Of a stretch of DNA of 36,110 nt, positions 21,905 through 27,690 are shown one piece after another. Under the pieces are notes generated by a model. That model was not told the origin of the DNA and ran no database searches. It was given only the letters and a program-made list of their open reading frames with translations. How positions within the stretch are numbered: the stretch's first letter is position 1; each line of letters starts with the position of its first letter. The position numbers were made by a program, and so were the translations under genes. This DNA comes from Eximiradius proteiniborus (GTDB lineage: Bacteria; Bacteroidota; Ignavibacteria; Kapaibacteriales; UBA2268): assembly GCA_937936035.1 (NCBI GenBank), contig CALGXJ010000055.1, positions 1-36,110 on the forward strand. The letters are read 5' to 3'.

Positions 21905-21950
21905 AACTTCAACTTCTTTCGTGAACAAAATACGAATAAAAGTTGAAGTT
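21905..21950 (-). terminator. Large structured terminator of the cytochrome operon
   Basis: Perfect 11-bp stem AACTTCAACTT(21905-21915)/AAGTTGAAGTT(21940-21950) with an inner TTCGT(21918-21922)/ACGAA(21932-21936) stem; minus strand continues TTTTATTATTT; lies just beyond the 21983 stop. Confidence 0.75.
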
Positions 21951-21982: not shown

Positions 21983-23176
21983 TTAGAAGCCAGCCATTAT
22001 TCCAATAAGAGCTTTGCCAAACTTTCCTAATTCTTCGCTATCGGTGTATGTATACTCAGTAAAAAGTCGAAAATTGCGACGGATGGCATGTCCGGCGTGC
22101 AATGTTAAGGACTTTTCGTTGAGTTCTTTGTAGTCACTATTTATATAATTAAGCAGCACCGCGCCATAAGGTCCAGAATTATCACCTTTAGGAGTGAAAA
22201 TCAACTCGGCAAATCCTCCATCGGTTTTGACTTCTTTATCAATAGCCGAAGAAGCTGAATTTCTCAAAGTGTTTTTATCAGTTCGGAACAGGTATTGAAG
22301 ATTTAGCTCCAAAATATCATTATAACTTAATGTTAGGTCAGGTCCGAATATCGTAAACTCTGGGCTGCTACGTGTAAAATTATTAAATACACTTTCTTTG
22401 CCCAAATAAGAAAATACACCTATTCGGGCAAATTCTCCAATATCTTGGGAAATTCTTGCTGAAAAGTTTTTATATTTGTCCTTGTCAAATAGTCTTGCTT
22501 CATTTGCTGGAGAAATACCATTTCCATTTCCTATTTGCAAAACAATGTCTGTGCTGGTTTCGAGACCGAGAGTAAGCATAGCCCCACGGTCGTATGCAAG
22601 ATTTGCCTTTGCAATGCCAACTTTTGTTTTGTAAATGTTGTAGTCGGCAAAGGTCAATCGAAGTTCTCGTTTGAAAAGCGGGTCTGATATTTGGTATTGC
22701 CCAATATATAAATCTAAATCGATATTGAATAAATCATTAAACATTATGTAAGCATCTTCAATTCCTGCAACATTACCTCTTTCTGAAAAGAAAAAGTAGA
22801 AGTAGTATGCTATATCGGGGGCGATTGTCCCACCGGATAAAATTTTCAAAACATAAGGAGTTGCAAAGTCACCTTTCTTTTGGTTTGCTGTATTGTATAC
22901 GGCATTCAAATCTAAGCGGAAACCGATTGGGAATTCTCTCATCAACGACAGATGGGAGTCGCCTGTTTCAAGAAAATAGCGTGGTGCTTCGCTGTCTTTA
23001 AACTTAAAACCATTTGCTGCGAATTCATCACCGTAAGGTTTTAGTTTTGGAGCAGGAGCGTGGCAAGTTTGGCAGGATAATTTATACTGGCGAGCGAATG
23101 CCGGGATAGCAGATGCTTCGCTGCATGCTTCAAAAAATATGAACACAACAATAATAACTACAAAGAAATTTTTCAT
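21983..23176 (-). CDS. Cyc2-like fused monoheme cytochrome c - outer-membrane porin
   Basis: Start taken at the ATG at 23176, preceded by AGGTGG (track gives 23194). Signal peptide, then AIPAFARQYKLSCQTCHAPAPKLKPYGDEFAANGFKF with a CXXCH heme site, then ~330 aa of beta-barrel-like sequence. Confidence 0.65.
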   Translation of the reverse strand: MKNFFVVIIVVFIFFEACSEASAIPAFARQYKLSCQTCHAPAPKLKPYGDEFAANGFKFKDSEAPRYFLETGDSHLSLMREFPIGFRLDLNAVYNTANQKKGDFATPYVLKILSGGTIAPDIAYYFYFFFSERGNVAGIEDAYIMFNDLFNIDLDLYIGQYQISDPLFKRELRLTFADYNIYKTKVGIAKANLAYDRGAMLTLGLETSTDIVLQIGNGNGISPANEARLFDKDKYKNFSARISQDIGEFARIGVFSYLGKESVFNNFTRSSPEFTIFGPDLTLSYNDILELNLQYLFRTDKNTLRNSASSAIDKEVKTDGGFAELIFTPKGDNSGPYGAVLLNYINSDYKELNEKSLTLHAGHAIRRNFRLFTEYTYTDSEELGKFGKALIGIMAGF

Positions 23177-23186
23177 TTTTCCACCT

Positions 23187-24530
23187 TTAATCAATTATTT
23201 TAACTTTCGCATAAGCTGTGTTAACTTCAAAGGGACGGTATTCTTCTTCGGGAACTTTCAAGTATTTCCCGACTGAACTTACAAGCAGTTGATAATACAG
23301 AGTGGCTTTGAATGTAAGTTCTTTTGATTTGATTTTATCAGGTATATGAAATGTAAAGTTTTCAATTTTTGTTTCGCGTGGTCCTATGCGGTAATCAACA
23401 CCAAGCGAAGCAGTGTTCCATTGCTGAATAGTCATTCTTCCTTGTGGGTCAAAATATGGCATACGGAAAATTCTATTGCCTTCGGGAATATCATCACGTT
23501 CTAATCCTTTAAAATTCGGGTCTTTCAGAGGAACTCCCATATCCTGATATGAAAGCGTCTTTGTAGAAATTGTATATTCCTCGCCGGGAAAACCTTTTTT
23601 GGTAACCGGGATATGATATTTTGTTCCGTCTTCGCCGATTGCAACAAGTTCGAGCCACACTAACCTGTCTTCTACCGAACCAGTCGGGAACTTGTGTCCA
23701 GTTTTTTGGTTATATAATGTAACTGTAAGATTCAGAGCATCGCCGGGTGCGCATTCACTATGGTCTGGGTACACTTTCAGCTCGATTGTTCCTCGAACTT
23801 TGGATGGGTCGTGAGCACCTGCAAAAATATGCTGACGCACGTCAGGATACACTTTGCCCATTGCTGCTTTTATGCTTTGTGCCCGTGGCATATGACAATC
23901 CTGGCAATGGACGTTTTCTTTGGCGTAAGGTCCTTCTTTCCATTCGAGATGAGTGGATTTTACCCATACTCCGTATGGACTTTTTTCGTTGTGGCAAATA
24001 CCGCAAAAGTCCCCTGTTTTCATAATTGGATTTACTTCAATTTTGTGCACAGGCGAACCAACCTCGCCAATTCGTGAGTTGTACTTAGTTTTGCCGGGTT
24101 TAATAACGTAGTTGAAATTGTAAGGAAGGTCTCCTTCAAATCCCGAAATCAGATGACATACCTCGCAGGAAACACCTTCGTTAGCACGAGTTCCAGCTGA
24201 TGGAGGTTGCGGAGGTATATCGCCAGAAAGCAAAGCCAAGGGCGCGTGGCAACCGTTGCAACCAGCTTCGACTTCTGCAACTTTCTCGTCGAGTCGTGCG
24301 TGAGGCAGAGCCAAAGCAAAATATTCTATCTCGTCCCATTCGTGAGTATAGGACTGGGACATCATTGCTTGCGACCATTGATTGTAGAAGTCGCGGTGGC
24401 AGGCAGTCCCACAATATTTTGGCGTTTCAAAATCAGAATACTTAAACTTCGGGTTGTTCGGGCTATTTAAAAATGATAACAATAAAGCTGAAACGCCTAA
24501 TAATGCGCTAATAAGTAAAATCTTTTTCAT
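23187..24530 (-). CDS. Multiheme cytochrome c (cytochrome c554-like), four CXXCH plus one CX3CH
   Basis: 447 aa; signal peptide; CGTACH, CNGCH, CEVCH, CGICH, CQDCH; C-terminal beta-rich domain. Confidence 0.85.
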   Translation of the reverse strand: MKKILLISALLGVSALLLSFLNSPNNPKFKYSDFETPKYCGTACHRDFYNQWSQAMMSQSYTHEWDEIEYFALALPHARLDEKVAEVEAGCNGCHAPLALLSGDIPPQPPSAGTRANEGVSCEVCHLISGFEGDLPYNFNYVIKPGKTKYNSRIGEVGSPVHKIEVNPIMKTGDFCGICHNEKSPYGVWVKSTHLEWKEGPYAKENVHCQDCHMPRAQSIKAAMGKVYPDVRQHIFAGAHDPSKVRGTIELKVYPDHSECAPGDALNLTVTLYNQKTGHKFPTGSVEDRLVWLELVAIGEDGTKYHIPVTKKGFPGEEYTISTKTLSYQDMGVPLKDPNFKGLERDDIPEGNRIFRMPYFDPQGRMTIQQWNTASLGVDYRIGPRETKIENFTFHIPDKIKSKELTFKATLYYQLLVSSVGKYLKVPEEEYRPFEVNTAYAKVKIID

Positions 24531-24548
24531 ATTTACTTATAAATATGT

Positions 24549-25499
24549 TTATAAATGGCTGTTATTTAATTCAATTAGATATCTTACAGTTGATAATAGT
24601 TCGCCTATCTGTGGCTTTGTTAGCTGTGCATCTGCCCCGATTGATTTACCTTTGTGAAGTATATCTTCAGAAATTATCGAAGAAAAAATTATAACAGGTA
24701 ATTTTTGCAGTATAGGATCGCTTTTTACTAACTTCGTTAAAGTGTAACCGTCCATTATAGGCATTTCAATGTCTGTTATTACAACATCACAAAAATCTTG
24801 TAATTTGTAACCTTCACGCACTTTCTGGGCAATTTCTTGCAACCGTTTCCACGCTTCCTCGCCATTATGAAATGCTTCAATTTCGAAACCTGCAATCTTT
24901 AATCTATCTGTAATCATCCGGCGAATAGTTTGAGAATCCTCTGCCGTGATGGCGCGTAATTGCTTCTCAAATTTTTCTACTTTTTGTTTGATATCAATTG
25001 CAGATGAGGGGTCAATATCGGCTACAATTTTTTCAATATCAAGCATCAAAACAGTTACATCTTTCAAATTGATTATCCCGACGATAGATGATTTGTCGCT
25101 CCCGAATTCTTCCATAGCGTCAGGTGTTGTAATTTCGGTCCAGGAAATTCTGTGAATTCGCTTAACATCGCTAACAATTAATCCAACCCGCAGCTTATTA
25201 AATTCAGTGATTATCATTTTGTTGTCTGTCAGATCCGATGGAATTCCATATAAGTACTTTCGCAAATCAAGCGCCGGAATTACCACTCCCCGCAAATTGA
25301 ACACTCCACAAACGCATTCGTGTAAATTGGGCAATTTAGTTAGCTGAGGCATTCTGATTATTTCCCGTACCTTCGCAACATTCACACCGAATGATTGAGT
25401 TTGTTCAAGTCTATTCTCATCTGTAAAATCAATTATAAATTCTACTATTTCGAGTTCGTTGGTTCCTGTTTCCAGCAAAATGTTTGTTTGAGTAGCCAT
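24549..25499 (-). CDS. CheV-like chemotaxis coupling protein (CheW domain + response regulator receiver)
   Basis: 316 aa; CheW-like EIIRMPQLTKLPNLHECVCGVFNLRGVVIPALDLRKYL; receiver region with VVITDIEMPIMDGYTLTKLVKSDP and PVIIFSS.. and K (QLTKPQ). Confidence 0.88.
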   Translation of the reverse strand: MATQTNILLETGTNELEIVEFIIDFTDENRLEQTQSFGVNVAKVREIIRMPQLTKLPNLHECVCGVFNLRGVVIPALDLRKYLYGIPSDLTDNKMIITEFNKLRVGLIVSDVKRIHRISWTEITTPDAMEEFGSDKSSIVGIINLKDVTVLMLDIEKIVADIDPSSAIDIKQKVEKFEKQLRAITAEDSQTIRRMITDRLKIAGFEIEAFHNGEEAWKRLQEIAQKVREGYKLQDFCDVVITDIEMPIMDGYTLTKLVKSDPILQKLPVIIFSSIISEDILHKGKSIGADAQLTKPQIGELLSTVRYLIELNNSHL

Positions 25500-25636
25500 A
25501 ACAAAACCTCTTTTTTATCCATAATATACAAATAAAAAACGAAATAATCAATATTTTAATAATGAATTAATCGTTAAACTTTTTTTATTCTTTAGAGTAA
25601 ACTTATGTAGATTAATTTTAACGATAATAGAGAAAT

Positions 25637-25664
25637 GCCCGTATTGCAAATATGCAATACGGGC
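25637..25664 (-). terminator. Rho-independent terminator downstream of the TonB-dependent receptor
   Basis: Perfect 12-bp inverted repeat GCCCGTATTGCA/TGCAATACGGGC, 4-nt loop AATA; just past the 25696 stop. Confidence 0.75.
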
Positions 25665-25695: not shown

Positions 25696-27690
25696 TTAAT
25701 ATCTTACGCTAATTCCGCAAGTAAATGTTCTTCCGTAGCCAGGTAGCCCAATTTGGGTTAAGTAATATTCATCAGTTATGTTGTTAATTCGGGCAAATAA
25801 TTCAAAGTTGTTTCCATATAGGTCAAAACTATAGCCGATGCGGAAATTTAGCAAGGTATAGCTTTCAAGCTTGTCGAGCTTGCCGGAAATAGCATTCAGA
25901 GCGAATTGCTTGCCGATATGCTCCAATTCAATTTGTGGGACGAGCCCAAAACTAAACTTATACCCAGCTACCAACGATGCCTGCAATTCAGGTTTATATT
26001 CGAGATGGTCAACCTTCTTGCCTTGTTCTTTGCCTTCTGATTTCATAAATGTCGCATTTCCTTGAAGCAGCAGGTTAGAATTTGGCAATAAATTAAATCC
26101 AAGTTCTGCTCCATAAACGGTTGCTTCGGCAAGATTATCTCTCATACGCATATTGGGATAATTCGGGTTGTAAAGTGGATGCTCCTTTGGCACTTTGATA
26201 CGAATAATCAAATCATCATAGAAGCTTCCGAAAGCTGTAAAATTCAAATTTACAATTTCAGAAGTGTACGAAATTCCCCAGTCGAGTAGCAGACCCGTCT
26301 CTGCGCCTAAATCAGGGTTTGGTATGAATTTCCCTAATGCTCCGGAATATGCTTCGCGCAGAGTTGGGAAACGCGTTCTTCGCGAAATATTTGCATAAGT
26401 AGAAATTTCATCTGTCAAATAATATCGAGAACCTACAAATAGCCCAAAATCTTGAAATGTTTCGCCTTCGCTATCTTTGTAAATTCCTGTTTTCGGGGTT
26501 ACTGCTCCGTCGTATGTTGCTCCTGCAGCAAAATTAATATCTTTATAGCTCGATTTGTATTCTACTCCTGCTGAATAAGTAAACAGCGAAAATTCATCTT
26601 CTGCGTCGTTATCTATTTTTTCTTTGTGCATCGAGTAATACGAATTAAACACAGCGGTCAGCCAGTTTTTTTCAAACACTTCATATTCCAATGCAAAGCG
26701 GTTCCCAAATGTGAGATCTTTGTCCTTTTGCTTTGTTACTATTTTCGAATAAGTAGAATCATATGTATCTATTTGCTGATTGAAGAAATCGCCCCATAGC
26801 GTTGTGCGGAATATCACATTTCGCCCTAAATACTGTTCAGCATTAAACGTAAAAACATTTCGATTAATATCTGAATAACGCCAGAAACGAGCATCTTTTG
26901 CATACAGATATTCTTCGCTGGGAACCCCTTTTTCAGCTGTAGTCAGATTATAGGACAAACCAAGTGACGTCCCGTCAGATGGTTTGTATTCTGAACGAAT
27001 GAAAATATTCAGCCTTTCGAAATCGCTGTTTGTGCGAAGCCGAGAGTTCTGCGATTGATGCAGCAAAGAATTTGGAGCATCTTTCGACATCAAAAATCCG
27101 TCCGATTTGTTGTAACTGACTGCTGTCAGGTAATTGAAATCCCCGGACTTCCCATCATTCGATGCAGCAATATATGTTCCACCTCCATCTGTATATTGAA
27201 GCTTTACATTTCCACCCACTCCGTCTGATACTCGCTCATAAGACGAAATACTAACGACACCACCGAGGATATTAGGCCCCCAAAGTGCTGAATTAGAGTT
27301 TTTTTCAACCTTTACCCGTCCAATTATTTCAGTAGGAACAATGTTCAAGTCGAGTCGATTGTCCCACGGAATGTTTAGCAGAGCTCCATCTAAAAATAAT
27401 CCCATCTGGCGTTCGCCAGCCCCTCGAAGAAATGACAAAGCTTCTCCGCGAGAGTTTGTTCTAATCATCGTTGAAGTCATATATAACTGCAACTCGGAAA
27501 ATGATTTGACGTCCGTTATGGAGAGCATTTTTAGATCAATCACAGACGACGAAGCAGTAATCTGTGGCGTCTTTTGAGCACCGCTTACAACTACATCGCC
27601 AAGACGATACACTCGCAAAGTGTCCTTGCTGGCAAGTGCTGAATTAAACAATAGACAAAGAAAAACAATATATATGCTTATTTTCCTCAT
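25696..27690 (-). CDS. TonB-dependent receptor
   Basis: 664 aa; plug-like FLRGAGERQMGLFLDGALLNIPWDNRLDLNIVPTEIIGRVKVEKNSNSALWGPNILGGVVSI; C-terminal barrel ending RTFTCGISVRY. Confidence 0.9.
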   Translation of the reverse strand: MRKISIYIVFLCLLFNSALASKDTLRVYRLGDVVVSGAQKTPQITASSSVIDLKMLSITDVKSFSELQLYMTSTMIRTNSRGEALSFLRGAGERQMGLFLDGALLNIPWDNRLDLNIVPTEIIGRVKVEKNSNSALWGPNILGGVVSISSYERVSDGVGGNVKLQYTDGGGTYIAASNDGKSGDFNYLTAVSYNKSDGFLMSKDAPNSLLHQSQNSRLRTNSDFERLNIFIRSEYKPSDGTSLGLSYNLTTAEKGVPSEEYLYAKDARFWRYSDINRNVFTFNAEQYLGRNVIFRTTLWGDFFNQQIDTYDSTYSKIVTKQKDKDLTFGNRFALEYEVFEKNWLTAVFNSYYSMHKEKIDNDAEDEFSLFTYSAGVEYKSSYKDINFAAGATYDGAVTPKTGIYKDSEGETFQDFGLFVGSRYYLTDEISTYANISRRTRFPTLREAYSGALGKFIPNPDLGAETGLLLDWGISYTSEIVNLNFTAFGSFYDDLIIRIKVPKEHPLYNPNYPNMRMRDNLAEATVYGAELGFNLLPNSNLLLQGNATFMKSEGKEQGKKVDHLEYKPELQASLVAGYKFSFGLVPQIELEHIGKQFALNAISGKLDKLESYTLLNFRIGYSFDLYGNNFELFARINNITDEYYLTQIGLPGYGRTFTCGISVRY

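Follow-up and report, generated by a model that had tools for sequence, protein, structure and literature searches.

A pentaheme cytochrome and a Cyc2-like porin encoded behind cheV and a predicted flagellar-type promoter in Eximiradius proteiniborus

The window analyzed here, a stretch of 36,110 nucleotides from a draft genome of the uncultured, flagellated bacterium Eximiradius proteiniborus (1.69 Mb, 78% complete), carries three consecutive minus-strand genes in the order cheV, multiheme cytochrome, Cyc2-like porin (Table 1). This order, already read in a preliminary description of the DNA, is borne out by open reading frames and domain matches, as are the gaps of 18 bp (cheV to cytochrome) and 10 bp (cytochrome to porin); the identities given there to the three gene products were right, and the likeness to Cyc2 can be extended by a signature motif and 16 modeled strands. 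The ATG start of the porin lies at 23176, and a TTG at 23194 belongs to an upstream extension of its reading frame. Tight spacing as a special feature of the group was ruled out, since 10 of the 16 same-strand gaps in the window measure 22 bp or less; spacing by itself thus says little beyond operon structure. Both terminators of the earlier account correspond to hairpins, with folding energies of -24.3 kcal/mol downstream of the porin (tested fragment) and -22.6 kcal/mol upstream of cheV. Of the three sister species only one retains the former, and the site of the latter also holds a hairpin in sister species, with a changed sequence in two of them. The TonB-dependent receptor gene beyond it (25696-27690, minus strand) precedes cheV in each of the four species of the genus; its nearest models are heme/hemoglobin receptors, with scores below their cut-offs.

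Table 1. Genes and predicted regulatory features of the cheV-cytochrome-porin locus (window positions).
Feature	Position	Strand	Remarks
Likely terminator: hairpin then T-rich tract, 3' of the porin	about 21905..21950	-	z -4.95
Cyc2-like porin: N-terminal monoheme domain and 16-strand barrel (modeled)	21983..23176	-	
Pentaheme c-type cytochrome with C-terminal beta domain (PHC / ExtKL-like)	23187..24530	-	
cheV	24549..25499	-	CheW domain E 2.9e-30; receiver E 4.3e-17
Conserved 112-bp region 5' of cheV	25500..25611	-	identity to sister species
Possible second promoter, sigma-70-like, TTGATT-N17-TATATT	25523..25551	-	9/12 matches, inside the conserved region
Predicted sigma-28 (FliA)-type promoter, TAAAGAAT-N11-AACGATTA	25568..25594	-	AACGATAA in three sister species
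Likely terminator: hairpin between the TonB-dependent receptor gene and cheV	25637..25664	-	12-pair stem, z -6.5

Each of the three parts is of a known kind. The first gene product shows the architecture of a CheV adaptor, a CheW domain and, after it, a receiver whose active site holds the residues to be expected there, E187, D188, D243 (the phospho-acceptor aspartate), and K295; it differs from other CheV adaptors in that its gene leads an operon holding a putative electron conduit. Methyl-accepting proteins, for which the preliminary description advised a search elsewhere in the genome, are indeed present, and FliA, flagellins, CheA, and CheW are likewise encoded in the genome and the genus, which thereby possess the machinery for taxis.

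The cytochrome contains five heme motifs, in the order CGTACH, CNGCH, CEVCH, CGICH, and CQDCH. The first is of the CX3CH type, as in 54 of 76 relatives, and the other 22 have CX2CH; this site thus differs in spacing among the relatives, with its cysteines and its histidine constant. As the N-terminus forms a signal-like helix and no lipobox was found in any cytochrome relative, a periplasmic location is suggested. The structure model (pLDDT 89) finds its best PDB match in the penta-heme c552 of Thermochromatium tepidum (5ze8; E 6.6e-21, TM 0.60/0.69). The protein has five c-type heme sites and a C-terminal beta domain in a modeled c552 fold, and it fits the PHC family, described in 2025, which groups ExtKL, Gsu2801, and the pentaheme proteins of cable bacteria and whose likeness to c552 was noted (PMC11976967). 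It shares five hemes and the beta domain with cable-bacteria sPHC and with c552, and it differs in being encoded beside a Cyc2-like porin and in the frequent CX3CH form of heme 1. All 77 cytochrome sequences match the ExtKL model (NCBIfam NF040886) weakly; the window protein scores 39.6 bits against a curated cut-off of 250, outside ExtKL proper.

In the porin, a single CQTCH lies in the context AIPAFARQY-KLS-CQTCH-APA-PKL. The Cyc2 signature has been described as AXPXFAR[Q/K][T/Y] plus PXL, in a protein of at least 365 residues with a 16-strand barrel (Keffer et al., PMC8406198). PXFAR[Q/K][T/Y] precedes the one CXXCH of the window protein and PXL follows it, the distance from motif to CXXCH being three residues, against five in PMC8406198; the protein has 397 residues, and 16 long strands are modeled between residues 85 and 396. 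The strict form of PXFAR[Q/K][T/Y] occurs in 57 of 67 porin relatives and a looser full signature in 66. The model, whose confidence is low around the heme (residues 37-46), matches general porins in the PDB; sequence searches of Pfam and of the PDB with the porin returned nothing informative. These features are shared with Cyc2 of Mariprofundus and Acidithiobacillus and with Cyt572 of Leptospirillum. In contrast to the porin part of Cyc2, described as poorly conserved (PMC8406198), the barrel here is much better conserved, with a mean column identity of 52% over the whole protein in an alignment of 68 sequences. It also has a fixed pentaheme partner, and the carriers are mostly not known as iron oxidizers; the protein is Cyc2-like by motif, barrel, and length. 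Up to six proteins in each of several genomes of the class (G124, G030, G105, and others), most of 410-510 residues, are weakly similar to the porin, often within the heme domain only, and they are probably members of a larger Cyc2-like family. Another genome (G130) encodes a close porin relative of 50% identity (contig C13:33517-34653, locus L091), and a cytochrome search of that genome gave no match.

Comparison with other genomes identifies the cytochrome and the porin as the conserved unit. Among 80 loci from other genomes, four are cut by contig ends, and the porin adjoins the cytochrome in 72 of the 76 that can be resolved; in three of the remaining four unrelated genes follow, and the fourth has a broken cytochrome frame. 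The adjacency extends throughout the class. By database labels, carriers of the pair include Ignavibacteriae/Kapabacteria, Bacteroidales, Aminicenantes/Acidobacteria, Zixibacteria, KSB1, Calditrichota, Latescibacterota, Krumholzibacteriota, and Gemmatimonadetes, the closest relatives being labeled as Ignavibacteria or Bacteroidetes metagenome-assembled genomes and more distant ones as Candidatus Kapabacteria. The neighbors of the pair differ among loci and lie on the same strand at a near-random rate (38 of 73 upstream, 33 of 64 downstream), and the 25 commonest of 84 upstream-neighbor families contained nothing informative. A related arrangement is known from ExtHIJKL of Geobacter sulfurreducens, in which ExtKL, a pentaheme cytochrome of the periplasm that shares the fold family, is encoded with an outer-membrane barrel (ExtI) and in which, as here, an outer-surface cytochrome is absent (PMC6148476). 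The two differ in that the porin described here has a heme of its own, the rhodanese lipoprotein is absent from the present locus, and the cytochrome falls far below the ExtKL cut-off. Adjoining genes for a porin and a multiheme cytochrome, with a proposed electron route across the outer membrane, are also found in the MtrAB and OmbB-OmaB systems; the present pair differs from these by a smaller barrel with its own heme, a five-heme partner, and the absence of a surface cytochrome, and porins of that type gave no sequence match to the window porin.

The association with cheV is far narrower. The gene order, for which the preliminary description advised a search of related genomes, is shared by the window species and its three sisters, all that were sampled in the genus, and does not extend further: in the other 77 loci, no CheV was found close to the pair. 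A CheV-like protein is absent, at the threshold used, from 46 of 50 other pair-carrying genomes and encoded elsewhere in the remaining four, and two genomes of the same family that carry the pair (G155 and G157) gave no CheW-domain match at all. The three genes are therefore ruled out as a widely conserved system, and the idea of a single conserved functional unit does not hold, the pair recurring in many phyla without CheV. Since so few genomes hold both, the lack of adjacency shows that the pair needs no CheV and hardly tests a coupling where both exist. Within the genus, 18-28 bp separate cheV from the cytochrome, whereas in other loci the median distance from the cytochrome to an upstream gene on its own strand is 250 bp; the synteny of four close species is nevertheless weak evidence of selection, because the upstream receptor gene is kept too.

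The DNA ahead of cheV is strongly conserved. The 112-bp region is identical to the three sisters at 109, 100, and 98 positions (97%, 89%, and 88%); in the three genes themselves, identity to the same sisters at four-fold degenerate sites amounts to 70-77%, 46-50%, and 46-48%. Within this region, 95 bp ahead of cheV, stands a TAAAGTTT-N11-GCCGATAA-like site, which, in front of a chemotaxis gene in a FliA-encoding genome, is the sequence expected of a sigma-28-type promoter. The same pattern precedes flagellin, cheY-cheA, FliL-like, and CheW-domain genes in the genus. With a matrix built from these other genus sites, the cheV sites being left out of the training, the cheV site takes first place both in the whole window, at 15.6 bits (a rate of 2.3e-6 per position for simulated sequence), and in each of the three sister loci, at 19.7 bits; the lower score of the window is due to its -10 element, CGATTA, one step off the CGATAA of the sisters. 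The matrix test is not fully blind, because the motif was first noticed at cheV and the training sites were picked partly by that pattern. The spacer of 17 between TAAA and CGAT was read by eye from flagellin upstream regions. In one sister (G151), a hand count gave 26 of 94 TAAAG..CGATA matches at the 16-bp spacing, many of them inside genes, and an average of 8.5 at each of the other eight spacings. Among 76 upstream regions of cytochrome genes, none has the site within 300 bp. A sigma-28-type promoter in front of a cheV gene is by itself unsurprising. The sigma-70-like candidate in the same region has a level of match that is common by chance, and an inverted repeat around the promoter is present in the window and one sister and absent from the other two.

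Taken with the unconserved cheV-cytochrome gap, this site supports one transcript for the three genes. We consider it on balance probable that the pair is a conserved outer-membrane electron conduit which, in this genus, is transcribed behind cheV from the sigma-28 (FliA) promoter and made with the flagella and the chemotaxis proteins. The analysis establishes the gene content, the motifs, the modeled folds, the recurrence of the pair, the common order in four species, and the conserved sigma-28-type site; we infer the single transcript, the control by FliA, the periplasmic placement of the cytochrome, and the electron transfer itself. The one heme of the porin, in its N-terminal domain, would sit at one mouth of the 16-strand barrel. 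The pentaheme cytochrome, exported and lacking a lipobox, would most likely pass electrons to or from this heme in the periplasm. In the genus the pair appears to be left without promoter space of its own and would be read out from the cheV promoter, so that the conduit would be produced together with the flagella. CheV would meanwhile keep its usual role as the link between receptors and CheA, with adaptation through its receiver. As to origin, the simplest account would be that either the pair landed behind a sigma-28 cheV unit or cheV landed before the pair, the cheV promoter now being shared. Since a flagella-type promoter and a chemotaxis gene stand ahead of the pair only in this genus, the conduit may switch on there with swimming.

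Two other explanations are, in our judgment, rather unlikely but deserve attention. According to the first, the genes are neighbors only: the pair would be driven by its own promoter inside cheV, and the flagellar promoter would serve cheV alone or mainly. The existence of the pair as a free-standing two-gene unit elsewhere, and the restriction of the order to close species, agree with this proposal. No conserved candidate for such a promoter was found in the cheV-cytochrome gap or in the last cheV codons. The gap holds nothing conserved comparable to the 112-bp region among the four genus species compared, and against the two more distant sisters, conservation at four-fold sites is not raised in the final 45 codons of cheV (9/16 and 7/16) over that of the others. 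Among the hairpins listed for the window, none that resembles a terminator lies between the genes.

The second, to which we assign a similarly modest chance, concerns the direction of the electrons: in an Fe(II)-oxidizing Cyc2 system, the porin heme would take electrons from Fe(II) in the barrel and the pentaheme cytochrome would carry them inward. The Cyc2 signature and the barrel size speak for this proposal. Many of the lineages that carry the pair are usually described as anaerobic or facultative heterotrophs, which we count against Fe(II) oxidation. Cyc2 matches in Ignavibacteriales are already on record (PMC8478452, PMC6344600), and the FeGenie iron-oxidation genes reported for this order, dominantly of Cyc2 cluster 3 at the sites concerned, favor such a function (PMC8478452). 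On the other hand, the closest described analogue of the partner, ExtKL with ExtI, sits in a Geobacter cluster studied for reduction, and selenite and tellurite are reduced less well when extI is lost (PMC6148476).

Two further proposals link the conduit to behavior itself. In the first, which seems to us improbable, the conduit would have become part of the flagellar (FliA) regulon and would serve swimming cells in their energy or redox taxis, while CheV would adjust the output of the receptors to the use of the conduit. Slightly less credible still is a dedicated redox taxis in which the redox state of the conduit feeds CheV: the shared operon with its probable flagellar promoter, and a soluble chemoreceptor with an Fe-hydrogenase-like domain in sister genomes, which makes redox-linked receptors plausible, speak for it, but the pair is exported and CheV cytoplasmic, no bridging protein is present in the operon, and most pair-carrying genomes lack CheV.

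On the reading that we prefer, a conduit served by the cheV promoter, expression of the pair together with flagella is predicted, and the genus-level operon offers a concrete and cheap test of the co-regulation of electron-transfer and motility genes. Beyond the genus, a compact conduit of a pentaheme cytochrome and a single-heme porin would be common to many lineages whose outer-membrane electron transfer is mostly unexplained. Cyc2 matches in such genomes get listed as iron-oxidation genes, and the constant presence of an ExtKL-like partner makes it worth testing which way the electrons flow. In the literature searched, the coverage of which is incomplete, we found neither a PHC cytochrome constantly paired with a Cyc2-like porin, nor such a pair behind a flagellar-type promoter and cheV, nor any treatment that connects FliA with multiheme cytochromes and extracellular electron transfer.

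The soluble chemoreceptor mentioned above, with 4Fe-4S and Fe-only-hydrogenase-like domains (PF02906, E 7.1e-32), is encoded in sister genome G151 (contig C18, L296:2791-5052, minus strand) and is a candidate sensor of redox state or of hydrogen in taxis. Similar open reading frames occur in sister genomes G149 and G150, and none was found in the 78%-complete window genome. In two sisters, a methyl-accepting protein gene adjoins a gene on the opposite strand (L297, G151 contig C21; L298, G150 contig C56), the start of which, by eye, resembles cytochrome bd oxidase subunit II.
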